Positions 24,601-64,000 of a DNA stretch of 64,000 nt are shown piece after piece. How positions within the stretch are numbered: the first letter of the stretch is position 1; each line of letters starts with the position of its first letter. This DNA comes from Centroberyx gerrardi (taxonomy: Eukaryota; Chordata; Actinopteri; Beryciformes; Berycidae), in the NCBI RefSeq assembly GCF_048128805.1, contig NC_136001.1:2663501-2727500 (forward strand), given 5' to 3'. The notes under the pieces were generated by a model. That model was not told the origin of the DNA. It saw only the letters and a program-made list of their open reading frames with translations, and searched no databases. A program made the position numbers and the translations under genes.

Positions 24601-24957
24601 GCTCTGGGGTGTGGTGAAGTAACCGTCCGGGTCGTGGGGTCGCGGATGCTGGTAACTGTTTGAGGAATGTGGATCTCTTTTCCTGGAGCTTCCATCCTTC
24701 GCTCCTCGGGGGATTCGCCTCAGTTTGGCTACGGATTCCTTCTCGGCGATTCTCAAACTTTCAAACCGATTCGTCGAAGCCCTTCCCCGGGAATCGGACT
24801 CATCTGTTCCCGCAGCCAGTGCGCCGGTATCGTCCTGCATATAATGTGTCTCCAGCGCGGAGCCCTGATGGACGCCCACGGCTGTTTGAGAAGGTCCGAC
24901 ATGACGGAGTTCCACAGTCCTCAGAAAAAGCAGCAGCAAAGCAAAAAAGGCTGTCAT
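21630..24957 (-). CDS. gpr37l1: GPR37L1-like orphan G-protein-coupled receptor, 2 exons
   Basis: Exon 1 is 24957-24271 (229 codons), exon 2 is 22679-21630; the intron has a GTGAGG donor and TTTGCTAG acceptor in phase 0, falling in TM3 right after PYME. The 578-aa product starts with a signal peptide ([11 protein letters not shown]), then a long, basic, Ser-rich ectodomain with an NFS glycosylation site (129). TM1 (about 151-174) has [13 protein letters not shown]2 has [11 protein letters not shown]. Exon 2 opens [19 protein letters not shown], with IDRF where most class A receptors have DRY, a GPR37-family trait, then CQSILAKL and WVGSM. A run of six Cys followed by EEC (from about residue 499) is a likely palmitoylated tail; the C-terminus GTPC matches GPR37L1, whereas GPR37 ends GTHC. 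This family is a glial and neuronal receptor whose ligand (prosaposin peptides proposed) is debated. The frame is intact. The tail is Ser/Pro-rich and longer than in mammals. Confidence 0.93.
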
Positions 24958-26074
24958 ATTTTACCGTTGAACTGTATGGTGCTGATTTGTAGTATTTGCC
25001 TCTTTCAAAGACATGTGCTACAATTGTAGAATTGGCCTCCTCGGTAACAAAAATGGACGTAAGGCTGTATTTAACTGTCCATAGTCCGCCCTTCCACTGG
25101 CCCTGATGGAGAAGTTTTGAGTCTCGGTCAAACTTGAGCGCCCGTTATTCACTAGTGTCAAGCTAGCCAGAATACAACATCGCACTTCCGGTCACAGATT
25201 TAAAAATAAAAGCCTTATCAATGAACATGCGTTTAAATATTTTTTGAGTGCCATAAAGTAAAGTTTCATTTTACAACATATATATTAACTCATGTAATGC
25301 AATGCTGGAATAAGCATCTAGGCTGCCAAAATGCCCTGAGCTTTTTTTTTTTAAATCTCAATTTTACATTTATCTAATGGGCAACACATCAAGGTTTTAT
25401 AATAATGCACTCAATTTTAAATGCTACATTTTATTCTGAATCTGAATATTAAACTGATAAGCTTCACACAGAGCCTGTAGCCATCTGTTAGACTCAAAAC
25501 TCACAAAAAAACTCAAACATCAAACTTAAACCAGATAACTTGGAAAGATGTCTATTAGTCCATTTTAGCCTATCAGTGTCACATTTGTTCCTAAAAGCTG
25601 TGCAATGAAGGTTCATGTCCTGGTGTCAAGTCAGCCATTTTTACTTTACTTTTTATTATTATTATTTTTTTTGTGAAGGCTGAATCGTCCTACTTCCGGT
25701 CTTGTTCTGGCAAACTGACAGCTTGACGCAGCTCATTTATTCTTATTTGAGCAACATGGAGGAAGTGCGCCTCCTCCTGGCTGTAGACCATAGGCACATT
25801 GACCTATATTCTCTGAAAAGATAAGGATGCTTGCTGGTTAGAACTACATGAGAGAAAGACTGTTTGCAATTTATTACAAATGTATTTATTACAAATTATT
25901 ACTACAAACTGACATAACTCCGCTTCCCTTCAAGATTTGTAAGTGTTTAACTCAAAGTCAGATACAGGGTAGTTACATGGATGGATGCTGATATGTCTGG
26001 ATTGAAGCTATTGAAACAGCCGATATTTTGTGATGATTTACAATTTCTTTAACCATTTGACAGTTTTCATGCCA
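24958..26074. other. Upstream region of gpr37l1; no other gene supported
   Basis: The gpr37l1 promoter should lie directly above 24957, but no clear TATA box or defined site could be named. A 22-codon plus-strand ORF at 25756-25824 (MEEVRLLL...) vaguely resembles the start of a MADF domain; it stops at once and I do not count it as a gene. Confidence 0.35.
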
Positions 26075-33811: not shown

Positions 33812-35560
33812 TCAAATCGCAGTCCTCATGGCTGAGGAATTGGTAGTGGCCTGATGAAGGTTTGATTGGTTGGAGTGTCGCTTGGTGGCAGCCACTAGCA
33901 ATTCATTCATTTCTCCTAGTTTTGACCTGAGGCTGTTGGCGACCTGCTTGAAGGGGGAGGTGGGGGGAGACTGGGGAGCCTCAGGAGCACGCTGTGGGGT
34001 CATGTGTCTGATAGCCATGTTGAGTTTCTTCTCCATCGCTTCAGTCAGGCCCAGAAACATATCAGAGGAAAGGGAGGAGGAGGGGGAGCAAGGGGTCGAG
34101 GGGGTGGAGGGAGTGGAGGGGGATGACGCATGCTCCTTATCAATGTTTTTGTCCTTCACATTTGTCATTATTTCTTTCTCTGGCTTTCTTTGCATTTTTT
34201 CCAGCAATCCATAGGAGGGATTTTGAAGTCCATGTATCATGTTGGCCCTAAGCACATGACTCCTAATCCAGTTTGGATGAATAGCATCCTGTAAAAAAGG
34301 TTTTTTTTGCTCCCAGAAAATGTTAAAATTGTCAATAAAGTTCACCCTGTGAGCAACACAAGCTGATGCCAGCCATGTGTTAAGACTGAGGAGCCTGCTG
34401 AAAGTTCCAGCTCCCCTGTTGAGTGTCGGGATGGGGCCTGAGATAAATGCCTGTACAGGAAGCTTGCCTAGCAACTCCATCAAGTGGGTGAAGTCCTCTT
34501 TTAGTAGTTCAGATCCATATGGTTTCCTGGGGAGAACGTCATATGATCCCGCGTGAACAACAATCTTCTTCACGTTATGTTGGCTGGAGAGGATCTCCGG
34601 TAGCAGCTTGGTTACTCGCCTGACTGTAGCATTAGGAAGAAAGCAGTTGACCATCGTCATACTCTGGATATCTCTAGTTATTGAATCCCCGACAAGTAAA
34701 GTTTCACGAGTTGTAGCTTAGTAGTGGCTTGATTGTGAGATTTTTCCCGACGATAGGTATTTGTCGACCTAGCATGGTTAGCATGTGAATTAGCAGGCCG
34801 CATTTTCCGCCTGGAGGTAGCCGGCTGTGTTGAGTGCCTGGGGGTAGCAGCATTAACGTTAGCACCGGGACCAGTGCTAGCATTAGCATTAGCATTAGCT
34901 CTGCGGCTAGTAATAGGCTGCATCCCTTGCATGGAAGTACCGTTATTAGCATTAGCAGTCACTAGATCCGGCTCACTGAGTATTTTGTACCTGTTCTCCA
35001 GTTGCAGTCCTGGGGGTGTATTGTATTGGGGAGAGTATTGGGGTTTCCTCTTGTTTTTGTTGTTTCCTCCTCTGCCCCTACGGCGGACAACATCCGACCA
35101 CAGCTCACCAGGTGTAGAGACCCTTGCTGTGCCAATAGGCCATATCTATGGCGAGTAGCGGTGGGGAAGCCTCCAGGGCCAGTCCACATTGCGGCCAGGA
35201 GATGGTGTCGGTCGGGTCTGTAGCGAGTGGCGGAGGAGATGCCTCCGCAGACGGTCCATTTGTGGCTGGGTCAAGCCAGGGGAGAGTGTCGGCTAGGTCC
35301 GTAGTATGGGTCGCAGTCTCGGAGTCTGCACTTTTGCCAGATGTTTGACAGGAGGAATGCGGGCTGAAGACTCAAACAGCGTGTCAATGAGCTGCTCATC
35401 CTGGTGAATTTGATAAAGTGTGGAAATCATTCCTTCCAGTTCAGCAATTTGCTGTGATAACCAAAGGCAGCCAGCACAGTCAGAGCAGGAGGAAGACTCA
35501 CTAACTTTAACCATCGACATTTTCCCACAGTAACAATAAAAAATAAAAAATAAAAAGATA
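33812..35560 (-). pseudogene. LINE ORF1 with SGNH esterase domain (L2-like), minus strand
   Basis: The esterase frame runs from about 34715 to 33812: TLLVGDSITRDIQ (SGNH block I), VVHAGSYDVLPR in the position of the usual HAGTND block, AFISGPIPTLNRG, and DAIHPN (the D-x2-H block), then a Ser/Pro-rich tail. Upstream, 35519-35293 carries CSDCAGCLWLSQQIAELEG, the ORF1 N-terminus of the same family; the linker 35290-34720 is broken by stops and frame changes. I see no ORF2 downstream, so the copy is truncated. The element points away from the plus-strand LINE at 35.9 kb. Confidence 0.7.
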
Positions 35561-35966
35561 AAAAAGAACAGCAACAGAAAAAATACTTAAAAAATAGTTG
35601 GTCAGCAGGAAAAAAAAGGAAAATATTGCTGAAAATAGATAAGCAGGCAAGGAGCAAAGCAGAGAGCGTCTGGTCAGGAAGAAAGCCGGAAGCTAGCTAA
35701 TTAATGAAAATATACATTTCAGTAAGAGTTATTTTCTTACCTTTATCTCGACCTTGAACTTCAGCATGAGCCTTCTTTGCCTTTCTCTTCTTGGCTCTGG
35801 AGGGATATAACCGTTTTTTGAGTGCCATATAGTTTTTTCTTTGATATTGCACGCATCACTGCAGTCTGAATATATGGCTTAGAGAAACAACGCCCCCTTA
35901 ACCAATCAGAGCCCTTGCGTGTAAGTCCCCATCCGTGTCGCCGCTTGGTTCCTACGCCCTCCACCG

Positions 35967-37221
35967 TTGCATTTACCACTGCCACTACTCCCTTTACTGG
36001 CTGTAGCTGTTTTCTGTTTCCCCAGCATCTACTACCGGACTCTGTCCGACCCTCTAACAATGGTAACCACCACTGAAATCACCTACATCAAATCTAAACT
36101 ACTACCGATTGAGCAGCTCATCAACGACCTTCTTCAGCGACAAACAGAGCTCTGTTCCCAGCTAGCTAGCCTGGAACCTGCCAATAGCCAGCTACCCTCG
36201 ACTGAGGAGATTGCAACTCACCAGGATGTCGTTAGCCCTGCTCCCGGCTGCTCCACCTGGGCGTCAGTGGTGAGAAGTAGGAGAAGAGTTTCACTTCCTC
36301 TTTTCAATCCACTGGGATATGAAGAGGTCTTGCAGCTATCCAGCCACTTTGCTCCCCTTGCTGACCTCATTCACAACCTAGCATCGCCGTCCATAAATGG
36401 AGCTGACCGATTTACACCAGCCCCCAAGAAGTGTTCTCTTCCGTGCGGCATCATCCCCTCCAGCTCCCAGTCCGGCTCTCCCAGGAGAAAACGGGTGTCA
36501 AGCCCTACATCGGAGCCCAGCACACCTGAAGCTACCCCCTCTGTAGTGTCCAGCTGTCCAGTGCCCCCATCTGCCTCTCCCCTGGCCCTGGATGGCGAGG
36601 CCACTCCCCCAGAGCGAAGCAGACCTGCTAGCATGGCTAACATGGCTAGCATTGCGGCCAGTCCGGCTACTAGCCTCCCACCTCCAAACAGTCATCCTCT
36701 GTACAGCGGTGGATGTGATAATGGCCCACCTGTGATTCTGGTTGTTGGCGACTCCATTATAAAATTTGTCAACCTCCCTGGTGCCATTACTTACAGTCTT
36801 TCTGGTGGTAAAGTAGAGAAGTTTATCAAGCTCATTCCCACACTCATTGACCACCACCCCTCTGTCCACACCGTGATAGTACATGCAGGAACTAATGACG
36901 TAATAGCCAGACAATCAATCAAACTTCACTATGAGCTTGAATCATTAGCCTCAACCATTGAGAGCCTAGGAAAACAGTGTATTCTGTCCGGCCCAATCCC
37001 AACACTGATGAACAGCAATGAACGTTTTAGCCGCCTCTACAGTCTGCATCACTGGCTTTAAAACTTTTGCACCGCAACAGGCTATGGTTTTATTACTACT
37101 ATTATTACTTTTGGACTAAACAGGACCTATTCAGAAGGGATGCGCTTCATCCCAACAGGAAAGGGACCAAGCAGTTGATCTCTAATTTTATTCACCACAT
37201 AGTTTTCAACTTACCCTGACA
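35967..37221 (+). pseudogene. L2-like LINE ORF1 with SGNH esterase domain, plus strand
   Basis: The frame 35967-37061 starts with an ITYIKSKL...EQLINDLLQRQ coiled-coil-like segment, then a Pro/Ser-rich region, then VVGDSIIKFVNLPG (block I), VIVHAGTNDVIARQ (catalytic block III) and CILSGPIPTLM. It stops after HHWL, but the next frame continues with TKQDLFRRDALHPNRKGTK, the final D-x2-H block, to about 37215. So the esterase is complete except for a frameshift near 37060. SGNH esterases are known in ORF1 of CR1/L2-type LINEs. Confidence 0.75.
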
Positions 37222-37416
37222 AGCACCTCAGCAAGACCCTACCCAGAAATCTACCCTCACCTAAATTTCTAGCAGTCTGGGTCCTGCTGGCAAACAAAAT
37301 GACTCTACCTTGGCCCATAGCAGTCATCCTAGACCCTCATGTGTCAAGAAGATATGCTTATACACTCTTCTTTTCATCTACGTAGACAGAATTTTAGACC
37401 CAAGAGAGTCTCAAGC

Positions 37417-38953
37417 AACAACCTGGTACAAATCAATTGTAGTAAAACACACAGTGCCACCTTCGGCCTACTCAATATCAGGTCCCTCTCCAAAAAAACC
37501 TTCATCTGTCAAGATTTCATCCTGTCTAACAACATGGACCTTTTTTTGTGAACTGAATGCTTCGACTGCTACCAATTTCTCTGCTGCTATCAGGTCCTCC
37601 TCGTTAGAAATGGGGCCTATTCAAGATGTTGACTTAATGTTAAACAACTTTAACAGCACCTGCTCCATGATTCTGGAACATATTGCCCCATTTAAACATA
37701 AAAAAAACTCCAAGTCCTCACATCCATGGTTATCTGAGGATCTGCGTGCCTTAAAGACGGAGTGTCGCAAGGCTGAGCGGAGGTGGAGAAGGTCTAGACT
37801 CACAGTCCATTTTTTAACCTTAAAAGATTTAATGAAAAGTTTCAATGCTGAGGTCAAGAATGCCAGAGCGCTTTATTTCTCTGATCTTATTCTTAAAAAT
37901 CGTAATAACTTAAGAGTCCTATTTAATGTAATCAGTTGTACAACTGATGCCCTCCCCTCTGCCAGTATTGATCACACCCCAGAAAAGTGTGAAGAATTTG
38001 TATCTTTCTTTGTGAACAAAAAAAAAGACGGATCCTTGCCAGTTACGGCTGCTACCTCGTCTAATTCTTTTAACTTTTTTGATACAGTGTAGAAGTGGCA
38101 GGAAAGTTGAGACGGACAACTTCTCTCATTGACTACACCAACTCGTGTGTCATTTATTTTAACCACAGAGCAAGACAATTTACTTTGCGCTCAAAAACAC
38201 AACATACGTCGAGCTGACTTCAGACTCAGGAAACCAGACTTTCTTAAAGGGACCGTGTCTACTTAACCCTGAGAAGCACACAATATAACTGTGTGTGTTA
38301 AACATACCCAAACCACAGATTATGGTGAATAATGTCCATAGAGTCCGCCACAACAGTTTCTATTGAGACCCTTACTGAGGCTATAACCAAAATGAATCCC
38401 TCCTCATGTGCCCTTGACGTCTTACCTGGTAGATTTTTTAAAGAGGTATATCCATCCATCTGCCCATTTATTTTATCTATAATTAATGCATCTCTTATGT
38501 CTGGCACTGTCCCAGCGTCTTTTAAAAAAGCTATCATTCAGCCGCTATTGAAGAAGCCATCCCTAGATCCTAACTCATTAAACAACTACAGACCTATTTC
38601 TAAACTACCCTTTTTCTCTAAGGTTTTAGAAAAGATTATAGCAGAGCAATTGGATTTCTTTGCAAGAATGGTCTGTTTGAGACCTTTTAGAGTACATCAT
38701 AGTACAGAGACTGCGCTCCTCAAAGTGTTGAATGACCTGCTTTTAGCTGCTGATGCTGGCAAAAACCTCTGTTTTAGTTCTTTTAGATCTTAGTGCGGCC
38801 TTCGACACAGTCGACCACACTATTTTATTGGATCGTCTTAAAAATTGGGTGGGATTCTCCGGTACTGTTTTAAAATGGTTTTATTCCTATTTTGGGCAGT
38901 GGCTGGTAAATTTGTGTGGCAAAACTCAGTCACAATTGAGTTACACCCTTTAA
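37417..38953 (+). pseudogene. L2-like LINE ORF2 with endonuclease deleted, RT truncated
   Basis: At 37465 the frame reads FGLLNIRSLSKKTFICQDF, the start of an APE endonuclease, up to NNMDLFL at about 37548. It then jumps straight to sequence that belongs after the endonuclease (DLMLNNFNSTC..., HPWLSEDLRALK). The catalytic core is missing. The RT follows at 38332-38793 with LNNYRPISKLPFFSKVLEK and HHSTETALLKV, then a frame change to [20 protein letters not shown] (first catalytic Asp), and ends near 38953 before the YADD block. The copy is dead, with an internal deletion and a 3' truncation. Confidence 0.75.
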
Positions 38954-43982: not shown

Positions 43983-45008
43983 CAGGGTTCCCGCAGCTCC
44001 TTAAAAAGTCTTAAAAGGTCTTAAAATAAAATCAGGGAAATTAAGGTCATAAATTGTCTTAAATTTACCGTAAATTTGCTGTAGGTATTAAATTTGCAGA
44101 TGGTGCATTTAAGGCTGATGGGAAAATTGTCAAGCACAGTGGCCTACCGTAAAACGTCTAGTAGCGTGTATTTGTTTGATTAACTTAGTGACAATGAGAG
44201 ACTCTGCCATTAATAGAAGTTTTACGTTACGTTTACGTTACGTTACGTACAGGCGTTGATGTCTGGCTGCGTGTCATCTTTTCGTTGTCGTCAGTCGTGG
44301 TTGCTAGATAGGGATGGGCCAAGATGGGGAAATGCAAGTTCAATGAAAAATGGTTGGAGGAAGATAAGTTTCGGAGGTGGTTGGCGCCGGCAGGAAACGA
44401 GGCTAGGTGCAATTTATGTCGAAAGACGTTCACGTTAGGGACCATGGGGGTGAAAGCCGTTGAATCCCACATGAGATCTCAAAAGCACCAGCAATACGCA
44501 GCGGCAACTAGTGGTTGTGGGCTAATGCCTGCATTGTTTGCACATGGCAGACCTGAAAGTTCAGACTCCCTTGTAACTTCTCAGCAGTCGGCTTTGAGCA
44601 GTTTTGTGTCACCGCCAGAGACACAAAGGGCTGAGGTGCTGTGGGTTCTCCACATGGTGAGCAGGCACCATTCATTCAAATCGAATGATGACATACGTAG
44701 CGTCTTTGCCGCTATGTTCCCTGATGGGGAATGCAAAGTCATTCACCTGTGGTGAAAATAAAACCGCCTATATCGGCAAATATGGCATCGCCTCGTTCAT
44801 TAAAAGAGAGCTATCGCGCAGCGTTAGTGAGAAACCCTATGTGGTAATGTTCGACGAAAGCATGAATAAAACAACAAAGAGCAAGCAAATGGATCTCCAT
44901 CTGAGGTACTGGACCACTGATGAGATGGGCACCCATGTCATCTCCCGCTATTATGGATCGCAATTCATGGGCCACTCCAGAGCCGAGGACATGTTGGATC
45001 ATTTCAAT

Positions 45009-45390
45009 GTAAGTAAGCTGTGTTCGAAATCGCATACTAACGTACTATTCATACTAAGTATGACGTCAAATTGAGTATGTAGTGCGGTCCAAAGCTCCTG
45101 TGCTAGCGGTGTAAACACCAACACTCCCCCGGTGCTCCGAGCTCCCAGTCCGGGCAGAGTCAGCTAATAGGACCGCTAGCTGCACGGCTAACTGAGCTAA
45201 CCAGCTAACGGCAGCCACAGTTAGCAGCAGTTAGCGGTTACTTTAGCAACAAGTAAAGCTATCTGTCCATCAGGAAACTTTGTAAATCACCGAGAGTTGA
45301 GGCAGCGCAGCCATCATTATTATCACAATTAAGTTATCAATGGGTCATGTTTTTGATCTCTCTCTCTCTCTCTAACCCTCTGTCTCTATA

Positions 45391-45430
<40 letters not shown>

Positions 45431-45992
45431 GCTATATAAGCACAACCATTATTATTATTATTGTTGTTGTTGTTATTAGGCTAATAGAACCTTCCATTAA
45501 AGACGAGATGAAATGAAAAATGCCTTTTTAACCCTTTTAGATCACATCCCCGGTCATACTGTGCACCTATTTAACAATATATGCCAAAAAAAATACCAAA
45601 AATCAATTTCATTGTATTCTTATATCAAAATTCAATCATGTTTTCTTCCTGTAAAACAAAATATGCCGTGTGCTTACGTAAGCATGCCCGTAACTAATTT
45701 CAACCAATAATATCATGACATCCACCCATCAATCAATCTTCAACTTTTAGCGCACAGAGCTAAGAGGCTAAGATTCATTAGTTAGCTAGCTAGCAACAGC
45801 ACACCCACTTTTCAACGTTCAAATCAAATTCCTCCCAACGTTATGTCCCGCCTGTCTTTCCTGTTTCACTCGGAAATACATCACGATACGGAAGTTAGAT
45901 ACTCTCGAAATGCCGTTTCATCTCGACTTTAACCTAATGTGGATTACTTGGCACATTGAATTGATCATTTCCTCCTTTTTTCAAATGTGCAG
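45009..45992. other. hAT intron holding repeat sequence
   Basis: This 984-bp intron begins GTAAGT and ends TGTGCAG. It contains CGAAATCGCATACTAACGTA near 45023, a fish miniature-element-like end, GCTAGC-rich sequence, CT and TA simple repeats, and no exon. An inserted non-autonomous element is likely, but I could not pair its ends. Confidence 0.4.
45395..45433. repeat. TA dinucleotide repeat
   Basis: Alternating TA run, in the hAT intron. Confidence 0.95.
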
Positions 45993-47425
45993 GAAGGTAC
46001 AAAGGAGCTGGATCTGAGCAACATGCTCTCTCTGTCAATGGATGGGCCCAACGTTAACTGGAAGTTTGTTGAGCTCTTACAAGAGGAACACAGAGAGCAG
46101 TGTGGTGGAGCCCAACTACAGATTGTTGGGAGTTGTGGCCTTCACATGATGCACAACTCGTTCAAGAATGGCTTCGCGGTGTGGCAAATTGAGAAAGTCC
46201 TCAGAGCCCTGTACTACCTGTTTCATTGTGCACCTGCAAGGAGGGAAGACTTCATGTTGGTGACCAAGTGTGGTACATTTCCTCAGCCATTTTGTGGGCA
46301 CCGTTGGCTGGAAAACCTGCCAGCAGTGGAGAGAGCCATTGAAATTTGACCATTTATCGTCACCTATGTGGATCAAGTCAAAGCCAAGAAGCTCCCCAAC
46401 CCAAGGTCGTCATCATATGACACCATCGCAGAAGCCCGGATGGATCCCATTATCCTGGCGAAGTTGCACTTCTTCATGAGTGTGTCAAGAAGTTTTCAGC
46501 CATTTCTCGCAAAGTACCAGAAGATGCCCCGATGATTCCCTTCCTCGGCAAAGATTTGGAGGATCTGATCAGGGTAGGCCTAATGAGTACTACAAATGTA
46601 TTAAAATGGTTTAGTCGTTCAAGCACCATTAATTACAGAGGAGACGAACAATTAAACAAAGTAATGAGTTTTCAGCATGTTGAATTGGTTTGTAGTTAGT
46701 ATTGTAAATACTGTACCTTTTTCCAATTATAAATTTAAGCCTATGCTATTCTATTTTCAGAGCCTTCTCAGACGCTTCATAAAGCGAGACGTCCTTGATG
46801 TTTCCCCAGTAAAACTGGTCAAGCCTGATGTGACTGACCAAAAGCTTTGGGTCAGTCCAAAGCAAGTGGACATTGGCATGGGAGCCACAGCTGCCCTCAA
46901 GGTAACTCTGATACATTTATTACCTTAGATGACTTCAACAATGTGCTATAGCAGCTGCAAAGTCACTTGAGCAGTGAAGTAATTATGTTGAAAAAGTAAG
47001 AGATTAGATGATTTGTTTAGACATCAAGCAGTTGGCATATTAACTGGATTTGTCAAATTTTGTGTAGTGTAAGTTACACATAGAGTTTATTTGGTGTTTC
47101 AGGCGACACTTGTGGCTTTTGTGCTTTTGTCAGGGAATGTCAGGCAGTCAGAGTGGTGGAAGTGAGCGTGATGCATAACTGTTCATGCGAGACAGCCAGA
47201 GTGCTCTGTCAAAAATTTGTCAGAAGATTCTATTAAAGTGCCCAATGAAGTACCCCACTGTCCGAAACATGATGTGCCTGGACCCCCCAAAGATGCACTC
47301 TAAGCCAGACATGTGCCTGCAGAAAATGCCCTCATCATGAAATTTGTGCAGGACAAGAAGTTGTCAGGAGTCACAGCGGGTAATATATGTAGACATAAGA
47401 AATTAACAACTAGCCTAGTGTTTGC

Positions 47426-47627
47426 AGGCATGTCCAAACTATTCCATAAAGGGCCGTGTGGCTGCAGGTTTTCATTCCAACCAAGCAGGAGCACACCAGG
47501 CTCGACTCATTTAATCAACTGATCTCAGTCTTCAGACAGTTGATTAGTCGAATCATGTGTGCTCTTGATTGGTTGGAACAAGAACCTGCAGGCACACGGC
47601 CCTTTATGGAATAGTTTGGACATGCCT
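47426..47627. mobile_element. 202-bp foldback miniature element inside the hAT gene
   Basis: The ends AGGCATGTCCAAACTATTCC and GGAATAGTTTGGACATGCCT are perfect complements, and the pairing continues through the AAAGGGCCGTGTG/CACACGGCCCTTT and GCAGGTT/AACCTGC blocks, so arms exceed 45 bp. It is in an intron of the broken hAT transposase. No clear target duplication. Confidence 0.88.
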
Positions 47628-47644
47628 GGCATAGGGAATCTTTG

Positions 47645-47746
47645 GGCACCTTCTCTAAATGTTATTAACCTGCTCTCCTCAATGTCTTTGACTAAGGCAC
47701 CTTCTCTAAATGTTATTGACCTGCTCTCCTCAATGTCTTTGACTAA
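47645..47746. repeat. Tandem duplication, 2 x 51 bp
   Basis: Two adjacent 51-bp units starting GGCACCTTCTCTAAATG, differing at one base (TTAACC versus TTGACC). A recent local duplication. Confidence 0.93.
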
Positions 47747-48556
47747 GATGATGTTATTTTTAATCAACAAATTGCCATATTTTAGATGTCAAGTTATACT
47801 AGCCTATTATTTTGCAGTTCAGCATTTTATAAGTGTTGTATTTTATCATTGAAAACATAGCCTAGTATGAGTCATAACAAATGTCTGTAGGCCTAATATA
47901 TGTTCTTAGACATAATAATTGAAATATAGTTGGAAATCTGAGATTAATTTTCCAGAGTATATTGAAAATAAATCTCATGTGATTTCCACAAGATATAATT
48001 TTAATTGGAAAATATTACAAATAATGTGCTTGTCTTTATCTAAATGCAGGTGATGAGATTGCACAACAATTTCAGAAGTTCCTCTTCAATGAGGCCAGAG
48101 GAGAGGAATTTATAGCCTTCAGTGTGTTGGATGGAAAATCGAGAGTTGACAGCTTCCTGCACAAGGCCATGAATGAATATGCAGAACTTTGGAACTTTGT
48201 GGAAAAGCAGTTGCTTCTGTCCCATGGACAAGCTACTGTGGAGCGTGGGTTCTCCATAAACAAGGAGGTGGAGATGTGCAATATGGAGGAGGACACTGCA
48301 GTCTCACAGAGACTAATCTGCGTGAGGGTGTGTGGTGGAGTGGTGAAGGTGCCACTAACTAAAGAGCTGCTAAATGAGTGTGCAACTGCACGCAACCGGT
48401 ATAGGATCCACTTGGAAGATGAGAGGAAGAAAAAGGGAAAGACAGAACAGATGGGCAAGAGAAAAAGGGCTGAAGATGAGCTTCAAGAGCTACGCAAGAA
48501 AAGAAGCACAATCACAAGTGTATGCGAAACTCTAGAAAAGGATGCAGACAGCTTTG

Positions 48557-48903
48557 CAGTTCCATGCAACGTTGTTCCGTGGGAGAACCATCCGATGAAA
48601 ATTATTAATTGGGTTTGTATCATCATTTGGAATGTTCCGGATGAGTTTGATAGCGTAGCAACAATAAAAGTTTCATGCAGATATTGCATGAAAGTTGCAT
48701 TGTGTGAGGGCAGCCAATAGGGCAGTTCAATAAGGAGAACACTACATTCATATTTCCCTTTTAGATTAGTCTTGGATAATAATAATAATCTTTTACAGTT
48801 GCTATGCTACAAAACTCACCCTGAACATTACAAATGATGATATAAACCAAATTCATGATTTTCATTCATTGGTTCTCCCACAGAACTCAGTTGCATGGAA
48901 CTG
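48557..48903. mobile_element. 347-bp foldback element with about 90-bp arms
   Basis: Left arm CAGTTCCATGCAAC, TGGGAGAACC, ATCATCATTTGGAATGTTC; the right arm is the complement with roughly 80% identity, ending GTTGCATGGAACTG. It interrupts the C-terminal coding region of the hAT transposase; open frame seen across the left arm is read-through. I did not find matching flanks. Confidence 0.75.
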
Positions 48904-49197: not shown

Positions 49198-49858
49198 TTA
49201 ATCAGAGTCACTACAAATACAGGAGAAAAACATTAGCCATGATGATCTCAAGTTGATAGATGTGCAGTTAAGGTGTAAAACATACATGCATACTCACTAT
49301 AGTACATCTTCTAACTCTGATGTTGATGCCTTTACCCCTTGAACACAAACACGAACCCTAAACAAAAATTACATTTTATATTAATGCCAATGCATTTATC
49401 ATCTTTTTCATGACAACATGCAAGGGATTTAGCTATTGTCTGCTAAAGGTTACCTCTGGATTCGTTGAATTGTCCTCCTGGACTTGTGTTGACACCATGT
49501 AAACAAGGACGGCACACTCCCACCTTTCAGTTTATTCAGACCGGTGAGTGATCTGACTATGCAGTCCTTGGTAAAATGTTTGGAGCACACTCTTGTGTTG
49601 TCCGTGATCTATTGAGAGATGGAATCTGTTAACATGTAGTTAACATGTAGTAACATGTAGAAAGCTAGAAGCAAACGTTAGCTAGCCTAGCTAGTTTGCT
49701 AACGTAATTACCTGAAAATGTGGTCCAACATCCCTCCTTATTTTGGCAATCCATTTCCGACGGGTGTGTGGGTGACTCGGAAACCGATGGAAAGACAAGC
49801 CTTGATCACATTCTCTCCTTTGGTAAGATGAACAGTCTGGTACACAACAATATGACAT
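49198..49858 (-). CDS. Small THAP-domain protein, 4 exons
   Basis: Exons 49858-49712, 49608-49454, 49357-49298 and 49210-49198 (minus). Donors are GTAATT, GTAACC and GTGAGT, acceptors end AATAG, TTTAG and GTAG, and phases agree, giving 375 nt (124 aa). Exon 1 begins MSYCCVPDCSS (C-x4-C, with VPxC), then LSFHRFPSHPHTRRKW and IRRDVG; exon 2 has RVCSKHF (C-x2-H) and GGSVPSLF, where THAP domains have their AVPTIF-type motif. That is a complete C2CH THAP DNA-binding domain. The tail ends EDVLYDSD-stop; no transposase follows, so it may be a DNA-binding fragment or the first exons of a lost THAP transposase. No stop or frameshift is seen. It points toward the YqaJ-like gene. Confidence 0.72.
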
Positions 49859-49924
49859 GCCACCGCCCCTTGTTACTACTCGCTAGCCGGCCGGCTTGCC
49901 ACGATTAAACTCCGCTCTCAAAAT

Positions 49925-50002: not shown

Positions 50003-50493
50003 ATAGAACAATGATCCCAGTTCAAAGAAAATAGCATATAGCATAACATTTAGGCTTGCACTATGGTTTGATGTTCTCCTAAAACAAACAGCAAAATGAT
50101 AAAATAAAACAATTTTTTATTATTATTATTATTATTTTATTATTTAATCTAATTTTAAACCATACATCAGAAATTTTACAAATCATAGCTCCCCCCTGTA
50201 CCTAAAGCTACAAAAAAATTTAAAGGGGGGGGGTATCGTTTGCTTTTTCAGCAATTTTATATAATTACCGGTGTCTATAAAATACATGTTAAGTTTTTTT
50301 CAGTAAAAATCGTTTAGCTGTATCTTTAGCTATTCACTTTCCAGTGCTTGTTTCCCACCTACAAGAGAATAGGTCGTTTTACACAAGCAGATTCTTATGC
50401 TAATGAGCTACTGCTCTGATTGGCTGGGTGTTCTGGAAGGCCCGCCCCTTCCTCCTTTGGAGAGAGCATAACAAACAAGAAGACATTAGCACA

Positions 50494-53353
50494 ATGGCTA
50501 CCGCTCCAAGACCGTACATGTTCGAGCCTGAATCCGATCCAGAGAATGAAGACATTTTGGAGGAACAAATTCAACAGCACAGGTCACAGCAGGATGTTTC
50601 AGAATGGTAAGTTGATGCCATGTTGGTTAACTGTAAACTGTCGCGCCTTCGTACGTTAGCTTTATGATGAGTCTAATGTGAATTAGCATACATAGTTACC
50701 AATTGTTTGCTAATATGAATTAGCATAGCTACATAGTTATGTATGCTAAGGTATAGGCAATCTAAAGTTAGCAATTTGTTTGAATGAATAATGCTGTATC
50801 TATATTTACTGACTATAGTGGCTGGCAGATCCATAAGTAGCTATGGCAACATACATTGGAACTGGCTTTATGGACCAAGTTTCTTTAATCCTGTCACTTG
50901 TTACTCAACCTCCTAGGCCTTACCCTGCTTATATAGCAATCCAAGTTTACAAGGAATCCCTGTTGTGGATGAAAACTGATCACATTTTTATAGTCTGTGC
51001 ACTATTCTGACAGGTGTACTTGTGGCAACTGGCAGAAGATGCCCACAGAAGCAGAGAACGTTTGCTGCAGAGATTCCAAAGGTGCAGTTGCTGTGCAGGT
51101 TGAGAAGTATCAGCTATAGATATGCAATGTTTAAACAAGCTTTCAAGATAAAAATGTGTCCAGGTATCCACATAAAAACACAGTAGGTTAAGGTCTTCCC
51201 AGATAACTAAAAAATAAACAAGTACCTTGAATACAAAACCGTAAGTTTATTAATGCTACATAAGCGCAGAAGTGCTCACTTATGCACTTTTGTTCATTTG
51301 TGTGCTTACGTGTAGCATTAGTAAACGTTCACATTTTGCATTCCACATAAATCATGCTTATTTTTCAGACAAAAATTTGATTGTTTTATTCTTTATGTAA
51401 TCCTACCTTCTGCATCCAATAGGTCATGAGGAGGTGTAACCAGCTCCCTGAGCCACCAACCTGTATGGTGGACCACCCTGGCCTTCATCCTGTCTGCCTT
51501 AATCCCTATTCTCTGCAAAATGCCCTAAATATTTAGAGCAGACTATGGTCCCTTGCATCTCGGGAGAATGGAAAAGTAAGTCCAATTTTTTAACGGCTAA
51601 CACAGTGACTTGTAATGTGTGAAATGTGTGCAGTTGAATAAACAAATCAGGCTGCCATAAATGCAGTGGGTTTTTTTTATGATCAACAACAAAAACATAC
51701 AGTATCAAAGTGTCTTATTTGTCTATTTACATGTTTCACTTGCTCCTGCAGCCAATCCTCATAGAGGGAAGCAGAATTAGCAGGTGGTAAAAAGGGTAAT
51801 GTTTGATTTGCTGTACATAAAACCATTTCTCTCCCTTGTGTCATAGTCTTTGGTATTTCTCCATCGCTGCATGCCTCCCACCGTCTCATACTCCTCTGTA
51901 CATATACCTCTCTAGCTAAACAGATAATTATGCGCCTCTTGCAGTTTTATTGCCAACTAACCATTTCTTCAAAAATGAGGTGAAATTAATAGGAAAAAAA
52001 AAGTCTTGGACAATAGTTCCATCAATCTAGACTTGATTTTACAATAGGAATAATGATGCTGTGGAAGGTGGATTATTTTATTTTCATCTTATTTTTGGTT
52101 AAATAATGCAGTAATGATTATGTTTAATGGTCAATGTTATCTACAAGTTGCTATGAAAATAGTGATAAGATTAATTTTGAAACTGGGTAACTGGAATGAC
52201 TGCATTTAGAGTGCAATATGGAAGCACTCACTGAAAAGAGACAGAGCACACAATCAAGTAGTTGCTGCCAGTATAACAATAAAAAAAAAATAGCTATGTA
52301 CACATTTCCTTCCAGTGATAATTATTGGTAGTGACACCAACATCTCAGCATCAAGCCTGCATCATGGTGGATCTGTGTGAATGCTATGCACTTCCTTCAA
52401 TACAGAGTTGCATTCTGTGACCACTAATATGATCCAAAGTAATAGGTTACCACAGTGGTAACCTATTACTTTCCTAGGAATTACTGTTTTATATTCAGGC
52501 CGATACATTTTTTTCAAATTTGGCACATGGATAGTCCTGGTCATTCACTACTTGGAAACAAAGAATGGTACCGATTGGCCCAAAGGGGACACTATATCTA
52601 ATTATATGGTCACAATAAATTTGTAGTCATTTCCAACAGTATCCCATATCAATAATGCTCAAACTTAATTTCATCATGGGTTGGTAAGTTATTGGAATGC
52701 TATTGGTTATGTCAGGAATACTTCTGGAAATGATTACAAATGCATTGTGATCAATATTCTACATTTTTTAAGTATTATACAGTAAGTAAATATTGTATAT
52801 ATATAGAATAAGCATTTCCAAATTGAATCTGCTTGGATCATATTATTGGTTAAAACTAACCAACATAATACATCTCAAATCTTAGACATGTTGGAAAACA
52901 TGTAGTGGATTAGTAGTGGTTGGAAAAGGGGGTTAGTTGGGTTGCTACTTTAATATGTTTTAAATGGAAGAAATCAACAACAATAAATCATAAAGGACTT
53001 TTTCCGATATTTATATATCATGGTATATGTTCATGTATGCAAAATCACATTAAAAAGGTGTTTGTTCATCTCTGCATGCCTCTAACCACAAACAACAAAG
53101 CTGTAAATTGTGTGTGTATTTGTGTCTGTGTCCCATCTCCAGCCATTACAGGTTCCTGGCTTACAGGAGTTTTGTGAGCTGGTGTTGGGGCTTGCTGGGC
53201 CGGAGGATCAGGGTCGTTATACCCTCATGTGTCGTCCTCCGCATCCGCCAGGAGTACCCAGATGTGGAGGGTGGCTACACTGGCTTCAGACCCCCCCCTC
53301 GACTGAAGCGGGAGACAAATCCGGCGAGGGCCTCCTCTTTGGTTGGTCGCTAG
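50494..53353 (+). pseudogene. Stand-alone P2X7 C-terminal (ballast) domain gene, frameshifted
   Basis: Exons 50494-50606, 51014-51098, 51423-51575 and 53143-53353; donors GTAAGT, GTTGAG and GTAAGT, acceptors TGACAG, CAATAG and CTCCAG, and all phases fit. Exon 1 is acidic (FEPESDPENEDILEEQI). Exon 2 has WCTCGNWQKMPTEAENVCC, the Cys-rich zinc motif of the P2X7 cytoplasmic tail. Exon 3 has PPTCMVDHPGLHPVCLNP, then a stop; one frame over the match resumes as RADYGPLHLG, so a small indel near 51530 breaks it. Exon 4 has HYRFLAYRSFVSWCWGLLG, RVVIPSCVVLRIRQEYP and YTGF, the conserved end. There is no channel part. The stop codon overlaps the stop of the minus-strand THAP-DDE gene in CTAG (53350-53353). 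Confidence 0.78.
52436..52472. repeat. Perfect 37-bp palindrome
   Basis: AAAGTAATAGGTTACCAC, a single A, then the exact complement GTGGTAACCTATTACTTT. It is in the last intron of the ballast-domain gene. No flanking duplication was seen. Confidence 0.9.
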
Positions 53354-56300
53354 AACTGGGCGCACAGGTCATCAGGGATGGGGATTTTGAGGACCTCTTC
53401 CACATAGGGTGCAGGGTCCAGGAAAACACTCTCAAAGAGCAGCTCCAGTAGTTCATCTACATAGTCTAAAATGCCACAGTAGTACAAATGTTCTTTTTTT
53501 TTTATTGCCATTGTGCTGCATGTATGTTTTGCATTTCAAATTTATATTCAGATTACTAATAAATCTGCATTTGTAACTTACGGAATGTTGGCTCCATTTT
53601 GACGGGTTTGACACTGTATCCCCCCTTCTTGGCCTTGGGAAAGGTGATCTCAATGGCTGGTGCACCAGTGGAGGATGTGGCCTGGAGGCGGTCTGCATTC
53701 TCATTGTAATGCATCGTAGACAGGTACAGCCTGAAAACCGCCCCCCACAAAACAAAAAGGTTAAATGTACACTGCTCTACAAAACAGCAGCAATGGCATG
53801 AGTGGTCACACTAAAAAATACTTCAAATTTTGTGTCCTATCCTACAAAAGTAGATAGTATGCAAGTTGATAGTATGTAATGCCATCTTCTTTTATACCTG
53901 CAAAGCATTCCAAGGAAAGGGAACACCACACTCTTTGGGGCAAATCGTAGGATGACACTGTGGAAGGCCTCTAGTGAGGATGTCTGGTGGTGGGGGCTCA
54001 GTTTTTGCACGTCCTTAAGAACCCGTTTGTTGGTGAGGACCTTCTCCAACTTGTAAAGTGCCTTTGATCCTATGTGAAAGATTAAAAAAAAAAAAAGGAC
54101 ATTTTCTTCACATTCAGAGAGACATGTTCTGTTATTTTATGGTATGAAAAGTGTAACAAAATTAACCGTTCATACAATTTCAAAACCTGTAAACAGTGGG
54201 TGGGTGCTAGCCATGTCAGTACCTGGTTTTATCCACTTGCTCCGGTCCCTTGAAATGCAGTCAGGATGCTGACACTTGGGGAAGAGTGGGTCTTCATGTG
54301 TGTGAATGTCTTGGACATGGTTGATCACTGACATCCACTTAGCTACCCTCTCTGGTCCTGTCTTGGAAGATGATGCTGTCCAGTACAGGTGATTTTTCAG
54401 GCTTGGGTGCCACCTCTGGATAATTTCAGTCCATTTCCTTGGCCACCTTGTCCACCTGCTTAGACACACCTTAAAATTGAGAGAAGTAATGAATAACTAA
54501 TGTTTAGAGTTACTGCAATTTTTACCTAGATGCAATTGATTGAAGAATGTCCCTTTTTGCACTATTGATAACAAGTATGAACCAATCCTAATCATCCTCT
54601 TATGTAGTATGAACAGGATTTCATTAAGTAGATCATGATGCCAACAACCACGATTAAAGGGTTGGTTTACTTTTTTGGAACCTCAACCCTATTTAAAGGG
54701 TCTGGCATGATGCAGACTAGTACAGGACATAATCATCTCATCTCTTTAGTATTGAGCAACTTACCGTTCTGCTACATTCTCTCACCAATCATTTTAGCCT
54801 TCAAAACTTATGAAACATATAATTTATTTAAATTCAAAGTATAGTCTGATGGTTCGACACGTTTTGGTTTCAAACTGTACATCCTATTGTTATATTGACT
54901 TTCATACGCTTGTGTGGAAGTTGTCAGAATTACTCATTTGCTCAGGACCAATGACACTCTATGTTTGATACAATGTAGTTTGTGACTCTACTGCAAGCTT
55001 CCCATTTACGAAAAGGAAACGCATGATTTTTGAAGGCTAAAACAACTGTCCCATTGGAGTGTGTTGGAGCATGGTGAGAGGATGTAGCACAGCAGTAGGT
55101 TGCACAATACTTGTGTGATGGGTGAAATTATGGCTTGTACGTCATGCCACACAAAGTTTATACAGGGTCTGGGTGCAAAATAAGTTAACCTATCCTTTAA
55201 TTTTTACCTTTCTGCAGATGCCAGACATCATAGAAATGTTGGATGTCCTTGTCCCTCAGGAACGTCTGTATCTGTGAGTGCCGGTCTGTGACAATGCTAT
55301 CCAGTTTCACCCCCCGGTCCTCCAGAAGTGCAAGGCTTCTTTTGAGGCCTTCTTTCTCCATGTGGTAGCTCCCACCGACCTCGTTGCTCTATTTGAAACA
55401 CAAAAACAAAAAGTGAAAACATGTTGGAGAATCATTACCACCTGTCTTCTTGAAACAAAGCACTAGTCTGACTGATCAAAATTTGGTCATCAATAAGACC
55501 AGTGCGCTGGTTTTAGTCCACACACGCCGATTACTAACCTGCACAAGCTGAAGATCAATGATTTTGTGTGTCTCAAGATTCATAACAGAATAACAGCCTT
55601 ACTTGGCGGAGTGGCCTAAGAAGGCACAAACAGAGTTCCCAGCATGAGTTCAGTACAACACCACCAAAGAAATCTGGGCATATATCACAGACATGAAATT
55701 GAATTCACAACTTAATTATCAATAGATTGTAGAATTTTAAGTTTCACTTTTGTTTTCGTGACTGACTTTGATAGCGGTTAGACCACCCTCTAGTGGGGAA
55801 AAGCGGTATAAACGGGGTTGAGGAGGGAAGCACCACTGGTGAAAAAAAATGGCACCACCGTGACAACTCTAGGTGACACGCTGCGCAACATTTTTATGCC
55901 AGCTCTAATAAATATAATATGCTATAACGATAATGCAATGTTTAAGGATAATGTCAAATATAATATATACTGTATTTTGAGATGGTCAATGTGTTAAAAG
56001 TAGGTCCTGGGACAGTTTTGGGATGGTCGTGAAAAAAGTTAGTTTTAAGCCTTGATTGCCAGTATGTGAAGGGTTGGCAAAAAAAACCATAGATGAATAT
56101 GACTGTGTTCTAACAGATTGGATCATCCCATGAATGGATGAATCCACTCCCACCATTCTAACTTGCTTTCACAATTGAGTTTACCAAATTACTAACCTGG
56201 GGAGTCTGCCCGCATGTCACCTCCGATGATGACTTTCTCCTGTTGGCATAGCTGCTGTAAGGTGACGTCCTGTTCTTGCCTCCATTTATGCACAATTGCC

Positions 56301-59222
56301 GGCTCAAGGTACATCCTGGCATGCCTGCGAAATGTGTTGTATTCAAAGGCCTTGAGACGCATTGCAGCCATGACCTGGTTTGGAAAAAATGAAACAGAGT
56401 TCAAGGGTTTAGTAGGATGCATTTATGACACAAAACCACACAAACTTCACATTCTGCATAGGTGGCTATTCAAATCAAACCAAATACCTTCTCCAGTTGA
56501 ATGAATGATGAGCCAGTGAAGTACACAGCAGCTGAAAGTTGGAGGTTTCCCGCAGGAGTACTACCAATTATGGGCTGGCTTGTCCACTTCCTGCTGTACT
56601 GGCAATGGGGGCACAACTTGTCCACAGCCAGAAATGTCCCTCACCTCCTTGTTTGCAAGTCACACACCCTTTGGCATACTGGACAGAGCTCAAACAGCTG
56701 AAGGAGACAGTCCTCGAACACAATATATTTCGGGACGTCATAAATGGACCTTGAGTCTTGCCTTTACAAAGAAATATAAAGAACAGATTTTGTAGATAAG
56801 AGATATTGTTATTGTTAGCCTCCAAGTACACAGAAGTAGCTTGTGACAGCACCTTACTGTGAAAGCCAGTGTGTGTTTTTGGGTGTCAAGCTGACACTGA
56901 TAATGGAGCAATACAGCACTAAAGGAACAATTTCTGATGAGGTGTGGAGCATTTGAAAATAACTTACGATGGGATTGTTGACTGAGTCAAGACGGTGGCA
57001 GAGTCACTCGGATTGTATGTTGAGTCGTCAGGTTCAGTGGACTCAACATCATCCTCAAGATCTTCTAGGAGCAGAAAATAACACGGAGACAAGCAGGGTT
57101 GTAATGGTGGATGTAAACAAATTGATGAGACCAGTGGCATCCTCTGATATGGAAGGTTAACAATGGGAACTAATGATTGCAGTTTAGAGATCAATAGCAA
57201 AGGTAGATGTTATTGAACCATTCCAACTTGCTGAATAGTAGCAGACTAGTTACATTATGAGTCATTGGAGGTGTGGGTTTCTTTGCAATTTGATGTCAGA
57301 TTTTCTGCATTAGAATCATTGACTAACATTTCAGCCACAATTCTAGTCCCACCATGTAGAGAACACATTTCAGATCCAAGCAAGAAGTTATGTACAAGGC
57401 AATTGTTGACCCTGCCTTGTTCATTTAATTACCTTCAAAATCAAAGTCCAGGCGCGGCCTTTTGGCAGGACGAATGGGCTTCAGAGGTGTGGGTGAGAAC
57501 AGTGGTGATTAGGGCTGGGTATCGTTTAAAAAATTACGATACCAGTACCAATACCAGTACCCTTAAAGTGGTACCGATACCAATAGAGTACTTCATTCGA
57601 TACCTTTTTTTTACGTTTTGGTGGCATCTCGGCACGCTGAACTGCCAACTCCGTCACATACACCGCGCTCGACTTCACCACAGACTGTATGGGTTGTAGT
57701 TGCTGCGGTAGCGGGCCAATCACACATCGCATTAAATCGAAGAACGCTTCTGGTGATTGGCTGCGAGCAAAACCATACAAATAGTCATTTTATTCTAGAT
57801 CTGTGTACAAAAAAGTATCGAATGCAGGTATCGTTTGACTGGAGAAGTTTTGATACTACTTGGTACTGGGTTATTTCGGTCGATACCTTAAAAGGTATCG
57901 AGTACCGATACCCAGCCCTAGTGGTGATGCAGACTCCAGGCGGCCAGTGGTGCCTACTCCAACAGTTACAGTGGGAACACTTGCTTGTGAAGCTATTTTG
58001 GAGACAATATATTGACTGATGACTGAAGAGTATACATCCATAAGCACATGCACAATGACACATTGGAAGTCATGAGACGTGATGTCAACAGTTTCCCATA
58101 AAACTAATTTATACTCACAAAATAATAAATTGTGTATTTTCTTGCAATATCACAAAGCAAATTATTTGGAAATAACCTTTACATGTGGCTAACATGTAGC
58201 ATAACTAACCTCGGCTTCTTATATGACTTTTCAATGTTCCCCTGGAAAGCTGTGTCCCAACAGATCTCTTACAGGAGTCTGTCTGGCAGCCTACGTCCTT
58301 TTTAGAAGGGACTGGCAAACAGGATGCAACCTAAGGAAGACAGAATTGATATCAGGAAATTTAGTATAAATCAGTGACCTGATCAAATTAAGTGACATGT
58401 CCAGCAACTCAATACCTAACTGGATAACCTAACAACTGTCAAAGAAAATGCAACTTGTGGTTACATGTTAGCCAACTGATGGGCAACTTATCAAGCAAGT
58501 TGCATTTAATTCATAGTATTCTGTTACATCACCACACAGCCATCTTGGTAGGAAAATAACAGCCGATTGCAATACATTAACAGGTGATTATAATCAAATG
58601 ACAGCCACAGCTGATGAGCTGTGTATGTGGTAAAGCACCATATTGGTAGGAAATGCATGTGACATGGAAGAGACAACTTAGCAGCATGGTAAATACACCA
58701 CACACATACTAGTAGGAAGACCACACCCACATGCGCACATTTTTTCTGTACAGATTTGCGGGTTAGAGCACTTGTCTCACACCTATATTCAGTGTGTTGC
58801 ATGTTTTGGCTAAGCTACTGGTAGCTAGCGCTAGCTAGCGCCGTCTAGCCAAGCTAATTTCAGTACTACAGCTGAACTGCGGCTATAACTAACAAAATAA
58901 TAGATTTATCTCGCCACACAGGCTACTTACACACTGAATACTTGCAGATGAATCCCGGATGGTTGGTACTGATCCTGGTTTGAGTAAAAGCAAATCCGGC
59001 GATGTATTCAGCTTCGTTCATTAGGCACTCCGTTGAAAAGTGTGCAGAACACACCAACAAGTGGTGGCTGACTTTCGGAGGAATGCAGTTACTAAAAATA
59101 AACTGAAGCCACTGAGAACGAAGTCCCATATCTTTGGGAAGTCGATGTAAGGACTTGTTGGCTGATTTGCAGCCAGAAACAGAGCAGTTGGCGTTGCCTG
59201 ATTTGCTTGTCATCTTTCTCAT
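53350..59222 (-). pseudogene. THAP-DDE transposase gene (ISL2EU-like?), 12 exons, decayed
   Basis: Exons (minus): 59222-58931, about 58331-58212, 58022-57433, 57064-56968, 56749-56488, 56374-56197, 55615-55539, 55388-55208, 54469-54223, 54069-53898, 53730-53582 and 53465-53350; splice sites and phases agree. Exon 1 is a THAP finger (CSVSGCK, LHRLP, W, VCSAHF). Exon 5 has Cys-rich CPVCQR and CPHCQYS pairs; exons 6-8 carry the DDE core: IIGGDMRADSPGHS, EVGGSYHMEKEGL, SIVTDRHSQI. Exon 10 has PHHQTSSLEAFHSVI, exon 11 HYNENADR, exon 12 ends DDLCAQF. Breaks: TGA after QTRR in exon 5, TAA at 55601-55599 after HSAK, a frameshift near 54437, and a 411-bp element in exon 3. The architecture is that of multicopy fish THAP transposases; the superfamily name is my best guess. 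Confidence 0.78.
57510..57920. mobile_element. 411-bp hAT-type element inside a transposase exon
   Basis: The ends TAGGGCTGGGTATCG and CGATACCCAGCCCTA are perfect inverted repeats. Both flanks are GTGGTGAT (57502-57509 and 57921-57928), an exact 8-bp hAT target duplication. If the element and one duplication are ignored, the minus-strand exon reads continuously across the site (ESASP to LFSPTPLK), proving insertion into coding sequence. Confidence 0.95.
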
Positions 59223-62695: not shown

Positions 62696-64000
62696 CCCAA
62701 CTAATATTTATTTTTATTTATACAGTTTAAAGTTACAGGGACAGTGCACATTAATAAACATTTCTGTAAATGTGCCAGCTTAGCCATCTTGGCTAATTTT
62801 CAACTGCAGTCCCTGGGCAGGTGTAATGACAGCTACAAAAGACACATAAAATACATTAAATCAGGAACAGCAATACTGTACATATAGCAGAGCACACTTC
62901 ATAAGAACACATAAAATACTTTAAAACAAGGACAACAATACATAAAACAAAGCACGCTTCAGATTATTTGAATAAGTTACAGAGTATGGTCACACACTTG
63001 ATTGTCTTTTAACCATGATTTTAAATTAATTTTAAATGAACAATATGTGTCACAGTCTCTGATAAGTGTTGGCAGACTGTTCCATGTGTGAGCTGCTCTC
63101 ACTGAAAAAGCTGACTGTCCGAAGGCAGTCCTCCTCATAGGTATTATACAATCCCCTCTTGCCACAGACCTAGTATGTCTATCATTAGTTGTTTTCTGCT
63201 TTATAAAAGCACTAAGAGGGGGAGGAGCCAAGCCATGCAGAATCTTATAGACAAGACAAGCGTCTGTAAATTTGATAAGATTGTCCCAGCTCAGTAAATT
63301 ATGATTTCTTAGGCAGTAACAATGGTGATGGGTGTTTGGCTTCCTGTCAAGCACCTTAAGAGCCTGGTGGTATACTGACTGTACAGGTTTGAGTGTTGTA
63401 CAGGAGGCTTGTGCCCAGCTAGTCAAACAGTATGACAAATATGACATGATCATGGCATTAAAATATAGTGTTGCTGCCTTAGTAGTTAGACAGTTTCTGA
63501 TATGGCGGAAATTTGACAAGTTGAACTTTACTACATTTGTTACCATCTTAATTTGTTTTTTAAATGTAAGATTAGAATCAATTGTTACACCAAGATATTT
63601 GAAATCAGATACCACTGTCAGCTTTTCCCCTGCAACATAACGTTAGGTGTGAGATTATCTGTTGACCTCTTAGTGAAGAACATACAAACTGTTTTCTTTA
63701 TGTTTAAGTGAAGACAGGAGTTATTAAGCCACTGTGTGACATAGGCCATCACTGCCGTGAGCTTACATGCAGCTTGCTGTTTGGTCGCTGCATGTACATA
63801 AATGACAGTATCATCTGCGTACATTTGAATCTCAGACTCATTGCATACAGTGGGAAGATCATTTATGTAAAGGCTAAACAACAGGGGCCCCAGACTTGAT
63901 CCCTGAGGTACACCGATATCACAACTAAGGGCTGATGACAGCTCCCCATTTATCTTAACCCTCTGTGCTCTGCCTTCCAGATAGGATTGCATCCATTTAA
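62696..64000 (-). pseudogene. LINE ORF2 reverse transcriptase 3' half, runs off the window
   Basis: Minus frame 63992-63618 has YLEGRAQRVKINGE, GVPQGSSLGPLLFSLYINDL and IQMYADDTVIY (the YADD catalytic motif). After a one-base frameshift near 63630, frame 63615-62977 continues FKYLGVTIDSNLTF, WAQASCTTLKPVQ and AAHTWNSLP, the usual C-terminal thumb region. Downstream, GGGACAGTGCACATTAATAA and a T-rich end (62700-62725) mark the 3' tail. The 5' part lies beyond 64000. It belongs to the CR1/L2/Rex group by gestalt. Apart from the frameshift it reads well, so this may be a fairly young copy. Confidence 0.75.

Follow-up and report, generated by a model that had tools for sequence, protein, structure and literature searches.

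Remains of a probable Kolobok transposon in Centroberyx gerrardi and a candidate antisense overlap between its KolX and transposase genes

Two converging gene remains

The window analysed here is a stretch of 64,000 nucleotides (nt) from Centroberyx gerrardi (NCBI RefSeq assembly GCF_048128805.1, contig NC_136001.1, positions 2,663,501 to 2,727,500 of the forward strand). Between positions 50494 and 59222 of the window, plus-strand exons for a stand-alone protein with the ballast domain of the P2X7 receptor, here called KolX, and minus-strand exons for a transposase with THAP and DDE domains converge tail to tail. A sequence-only reading had described four ballast exons facing twelve transposase exons, and both sets are indeed readable with Pfam and with tblastn using relatives. 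What had been called genes, however, are decayed copies, each with stops or frame changes, and an insert splits exon 3 of the transposase. The locus is very probably what is left of a teleost Kolobok DNA transposon, of the Kol0 kind, that when alive carried KolX (4 exons) and the transposase (12 exons) in converging order. The remains of both genes, their layout, their damage, the Kolobok motifs in the transposase and C-terminal peptides that fit a 20-nt antisense overlap are all directly observed.

KolX exon 1 (50494..50606, plus strand) opens with a start codon, as it does in relatives, and encodes the motif PYMFEPESDPE; relative P0001, from Epinephelus lanceolatus, matches it in tblastn at 61% identity with an expectation value (E) of 2e-9, and its donor lies at 50607. 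The first ballast cysteines are on exon 2 (51014..51098, or ending at 51081), which is found by tblastn and has a Pfam match to P2RX7_C below the cut-off (E 0.0012). Its donor is doubtful, with two possible sites at 51082 and 51099, and W stands in place of the third cysteine in the WCxCxxC of relatives. The reading frame shifts within exon 3 (51423..51575), where the tblastn match with P0003 switches frame, and an in-frame stop lies at 51534. Exon 4 (53143..53306) matches P2RX7_C (PF20478) above the cut-off, with 46.1 bits and E 6.9e-12, and closes with the stop of the family at 53304-53306; the relatives’ ends (GFRPPLD) point to a frame change in the C-run at 53291-53298. All four exons are matched by relatives in tblastn.

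The ballast protein obtained by reading through this damage has 70 protein matches, the best with 66% identity over 89%, and all the named ones are from fish. The Pfam scan took in open reading frames (ORFs) of three of the four ballast exons and seven of the twelve transposase exons, and no P2X channel domain was detected in those of ballast exons 1, 2 and 4. None is listed for the ballast relatives of 90-324 residues either, full receptors being too long to enter those searches. The predicted structure of KolX was too poor to use (mean predicted local distance difference test score 47.7); the assignment of the ballast fold therefore rests on sequence. In four further ORFs, P0067, P0068, P0069 and P0070, the only part of KolX present is exon 3, joined to unrelated residues at one end or at both. 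Judged by eye, their borders are like those at the locus, and the intron positions of KolX appear to be shared with them. A 297-residue gene model from Corythoichthys intestinalis (P0052, LOC130907587) has THAP and ballast domains in one protein, which could reflect either a genuine fusion or two genes merged in annotation.

The transposase remains (53286..59222, minus strand) were delineated by tblastn with P0071 and P0073, through which relatives matched 11 of the 12 exons; for exon 3 and the beginning of exon 9 we relied on reading by eye, and the exon borders were assigned by hand. Exon 1 (58931..59222) encodes the THAP domain (PF05485, E 1.5e-10) and an SVPTIR box, with a frame change near 58990. 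The first catalytic Asp (GGDMRADSPG) is on exon 6 (56197..56374), and the second (TDRHSQIQ) is on exon 8 (55208..55388), together with the DxxH motif (YDVWH). Exon 9 (54223..54467), in which an internal frame change was placed by eye, carries the H2CH finger (NHVQDIHTHEDPLFPKCQH), and exon 10 (53898..54069) the third catalytic residue (SSLEAFHS). One exon weakly resembles a Mutator-like transposase (E 0.008, below the cut-off), and the remaining exon ORFs scanned with Pfam gave sub-cut-off matches to unrelated families or none.

These motifs are what places the transposase among the Kolobok enzymes. A THAP domain with the C2CH pattern and an AVPTIF-type box is present, although SVPTIR lies in another frame after the frame change, and so is the DDE triad with C/DxxH and H2CH. 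The transposase matches 499 relatives, with 55-68% identity among the 120 listed. Within those 120, the C2CH pattern occurs in 54, many of the proteins being partial gene models, and strict patterns recover the first Asp in 79, the second in 77, DxxH in 96, H2CH in 66 and the catalytic Glu in 56. The KolX remains beside the transposase are a further feature, one of the Kol0 lineage.

In-frame stops interrupt the transposase at 56641-56643, 55599-55601 and 53350-53352. We call both genes dead because of the stops, the frame changes and the insert: the open frames that an active autonomous transposon needs are missing, and neither KolX nor the transposase is still made from this copy. The splice phases, previously described as consistent, hold in part, but the frame changes, the stops and the doubtful donor of KolX exon 2 stand against the rest of that description.

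When relatives were compared with the window by tblastn, only 4 of 879 transposase matches and none of 238 KolX matches lay outside 50.2-59.4 kb; the relatives matched nowhere else in the window except at 49.5-49.9 kb. There, a second THAP-domain fragment (49501-49861, minus strand; CCVPDCSSYQRR..., VCSKHFTKDC...) shows a weak resemblance to the THAP portion of this transposase family.

Antisense pairing of the gene ends

The two genes had been said to leave no room between them. There is indeed no gap, but the statement falls short, as the stops that fit the families overlap: that of KolX lies at 53304-53306 (plus) and that of the transposase at 53286-53288 (minus). The overlap from stop to stop (53286..53306) measures 21 bases here, while the relatives’ peptides fit 20. 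Stop codons that seem to overlap by 2 bases at 53350-53353 were discounted as an effect of the damage, since the ends of relatives differ.

KolX of relatives commonly has GFRPPLD or a variant of it as its last residues, and the transposase has SRF(N/S/K)xxxV where the gene model extends far enough (41 of 120 have this regular tail). We asked of the C-terminal peptides of the two proteins whether they can share DNA on opposite strands at overlaps of 4-30 nt, using all distinct tails, namely 59 from the 70 KolX matches and 108 from the 120 transposases. At 20 nt, 224 of the 6,372 tail pairs fit. Neighbouring overlaps are nearly empty, with 0 to 3 pairs at 12-19 nt and none at 21-30 nt; 10 nt gives 3 pairs and 11 nt gives 20. 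Shorter overlaps of 6, 7, 8 and 9 nt yield 52, 6, 26 and 175 pairs, respectively, and 4 nt is trivial (5,358). With permuted transposase tails, the count at 20 nt falls to a mean of 1.2 (maximum 20 in 200 runs), and internal V-ending peptides of the same proteins, taken as a control, give a mean of 9 (maximum 54). At least one partner at 20 nt was found for 30 of the 59 KolX tails and 29 of the 108 transposase tails; by protein, the figures are 54 of the 126 with a ballast domain and 33 of the 41 transposases with regular tails.

The signal recurs in a second set of 52 new KolX tails, in which 77 of 5,616 pairs fit at 20 nt and 10 of the tails find a partner. Permutation reduces this to a mean of 0.45 (maximum 9), and elsewhere there are at most 5 pairs at 10-19 and 21-30 nt, with 99 at 9 nt. 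In an earlier, pattern-filtered selection (21 KolX and 29 transposase tails), 12.6% of 609 pairs fit at 20 nt. Within species the effect is modest: of 59 pairs listed by hand, 17 fit, whereas shuffling gives 11.3 on average and reaches 17 in 18 of 1000 runs. This set joined 34 of the 120 transposases (those with V-ending tails and named species) to 32 hand-picked KolX proteins of the same species, leaving out six further regular-tailed transposases; no listed pair fits in Triplophysa rosa, two Leuciscus species, Pimephales, Siphateles and others. One pairing is specific: of all the tails tried, FKRPPV is the sole match for FKRGDV, and Gadus chalcogrammus has both. In Labeo rohita, KolX P0062 and transposase P0116 are on contigs of equal length (597,028 bases), a hint that they are neighbours; as other lengths in common, compared by eye, turned out to be those of entire chromosomes, this coincidence does not count as evidence. 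Because the 20-nt counts far exceed the permuted ones and overlaps of 12-19 and 21-30 nt give at most 5, the tail pairing looks like a family trait rather than chance.

To place the ballast proteins, a tree was built from 47 of the 126, picked by hand (29 from fish, 17 named others and one P2X7); the KolX protein of the window is itself outside this sample. The 29 fish KolX rows and an Engraulis protein named nanor form one clade with support 98/92. Outside it are Danio nanor-b, four related fish proteins, a pipefish protein, ten non-fish proteins and the P2X7 fragment. A 20-nt fit with one or more fish transposase tails exists for 18 of the 30 proteins in the clade and for none of the 16 ballast-only proteins that fall outside it, which were compared with fish transposases only. 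The Engraulis ‘nanor’ lies inside the clade, yet lacks a 20-nt fit. The position of P2X7, a single fragment on a very long branch, was set aside as uninformative.

From the peptides, we consider it likely that KolX and the transposase of living teleost elements share their final 20 bases, each strand of this stretch coding for the end of one protein. Such dual coding would be old and common to several teleost families; it would shape both C-terminal peptides (FRPPLD with FSREVV, FKRPPV with FKRGDV) and tie the two genes into one unit. Its presence or loss could then help to tell transposon-borne KolX from domesticated genes of the nanor-b kind, and so to date the exit of the ballast gene, and eventually that of P2X7, from the transposon. 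If it holds at the DNA level, antisense gene ends would be a marker separating mobile from domesticated copies. An opposite-strand overlap of the two gene ends in intact relatives seems to be a new point. The available part of the text of Kojima and Bao (2022; PMC9587614) does not mention it, and a literature search combining Kolobok, antisense and overlapping returned nothing on gene-end overlap, as judged by titles and the starts of abstracts.

Weighing the interpretation

Could the two genes be chance neighbours, a nanor-like ballast gene of the host beside an unrelated THAP transposon? Ballast genes do occur as low-copy host genes, nanor being an example, and transposon remains are, by eye, common in the window. 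We nonetheless hold this to be extremely unlikely, as the antisense tails are reciprocal at one register in several teleost families, the ballast sequence of the window is closest to the fish KolX set, whose clade is apart from nanor-b, and the pairing of KolX with the transposase is already published. It is also very improbable that the host has domesticated the pair and keeps both genes for a new use. Kolobok transposases have been domesticated repeatedly in Xenopus (PMC6004289), but here each gene has lost its open frame at more than one point and an insert lies in one exon.

A further explanation concerns the tails themselves, whose antisense match might be a compositional accident between two separately conserved peptides. 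In favour of this, both peptides are short and of biased composition (FRPPLD, FNQGxV), and many pairs also fit at 9 nt. Against this, permuting the transposase tails all but abolishes the 20-nt count, registers 12-19 and 21-30 hold 0-3 pairs (0-5 in the second set), the later KolX set repeats the signal, and the FKRGDV/FKRPPV match, exclusive among the tails tried, unites tails that are both present in Gadus chalcogrammus. We thus rate an accident of composition as very unlikely.

Several points weigh against the Kolobok reading and the dual coding attached to it. The overlap is seen at the DNA level only in this damaged copy, the peptides elsewhere coming from pooled lists and not from pairs at the same locus. 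At 20 nt, 6,148 of the 6,372 tail pairs do not fit; 72 of the 126 ballast proteins have no partner, 12 of the 30 clade members fit no listed transposase, and the 9-nt register yields its 175 and 99 pairs. The assignment to Kol0 is a probable one, drawn from KolX and the motifs. The boundaries of the element are putative. Neither inverted-repeat searches nor an alignment of the flanks with gaps detected terminal inverted repeats of significance, 57 of 1000 shuffles reaching the score. For ends of the form TTAA plus 5'-RR...YY-3', there is a single left candidate target site (50220..50223), followed by AG within AGGGGGGGGG, and no right counterpart was found. Scans of viral and prokaryotic contigs returned no relative, which says little given the contents of those collections.

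With the Kolobok reading preferred, the locus can be set beside known systems. KolX of the Kol0 lineage has been equated with the cytoplasmic ballast fold of P2X7, and P2X7 has been explained as a P2X4-like gene to which KolX became fused (Kojima and Bao 2022, PMC9587614). Like Kol0 elements (type Kolobok-1_XT), the locus joins KolX to a DDD/E transposase with DxxH (PMC9587614); it differs in being a dead copy. THAP and H2CH are usual features of Kolobok transposases, which have been domesticated many times in Xenopus (PMC6004289). Two proposals of the sequence-only reading, that ballast genes standing alone may be cargo or accessory genes carried by THAP transposons and that P2X7 could owe its tail to a mobile element, are thus correct but were already in print. 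The former is right in substance, given the published pairing and the fit of the tails, and the latter agrees with the work of Kojima and Bao. What our tail test adds is support, obtained without neighbouring genomic DNA, for ballast-domain proteins and THAP-DDE transposases as one teleost mobile unit, in agreement with the published view that a DNA transposon was the source of the tail of this immune receptor. The data also suggest that many fish proteins annotated as ‘P2X purinoceptor 7-like’ are KolX proteins of transposons and not receptors.

The ballast similarity to P2X7 covers its residues from about 456 to 594. The read-through protein of the window matches the sequences of four P2X7 structures in the PDB (6u9v, 9e3m, 8tr5 and 9e3q) with E 2.3e-8 to 1.3e-7, and a profile of fish ballast proteins matches P2X7 PDB sequences with E 3.9e-10 to 4.2e-9, opsins also being listed (E 0.001-0.008). 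In the receptor the ballast is joined to a channel domain, unlike in the KolX exons scanned (1, 2 and 4). It also sits in one exon, exon 13 (Rump et al. 2020, PMC7016195), whereas teleost KolX at the locus is spread over four. If P2X7 derives from KolX, the donor may therefore have been of another form than this four-exon gene. Ballast proteins across animals were described by Rump et al., and their main text has no words beginning ‘transpos’ (PMC7016195). Nanor and the other stand-alone proteins of that study share with KolX a ballast domain on its own; Danio nanor-b and ten non-fish proteins differ in lying outside the fish KolX clade and in having no 20-nt fit with fish transposases.

As for how a living element might work, the THAP domain of the transposase would bind the element ends, and the enzyme would cut the element out and paste it at TTAA sites. 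KolX, small, cysteine-rich and probably Zn-binding, would aid transposition, perhaps as an assembly factor dependent on nucleotides or Zn. Overlapping ends would hold both genes together, because damage there strikes both. The transposases of the P element and of Hermes (hAT) are distant comparisons, with a sequence identity of about 10%, and the P element is not known to make KolX. The P-element transposase uses GTP. The ballast of P2X7 has sites for GTP/GDP and for Zn (PMC9859053). In view of these two precedents, a nucleotide-linked helper role of KolX is possible.

Inserts and other contents of the window

Two non-autonomous inserts lie within the transposase remains. The one in exon 3 (57510..57920) is flanked, by direct reading, by an 8-base duplication, GTGGTGAT, at 57502-57509 and 57921-57928, from which we take it to be hAT-like. 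The other, in an intron (54654..55200), is bounded by TTAA on either side, has the inverted termini AGGG...CCT and is itself Kolobok-like; its inverted arms (54653-54697 and 55157-55201) are 76% complementary. Elsewhere in the window, ORFs at 12991-13449, 33812-38793, 44312-48720 and 62977-63642 resemble, as far as we can tell by eye, remains of long interspersed nuclear elements and of hAT-type transposons. Two ORFs at 21630-24960 (minus strand) resemble exons of what is presumably, from the translation, a receptor of the GPR37 kind.
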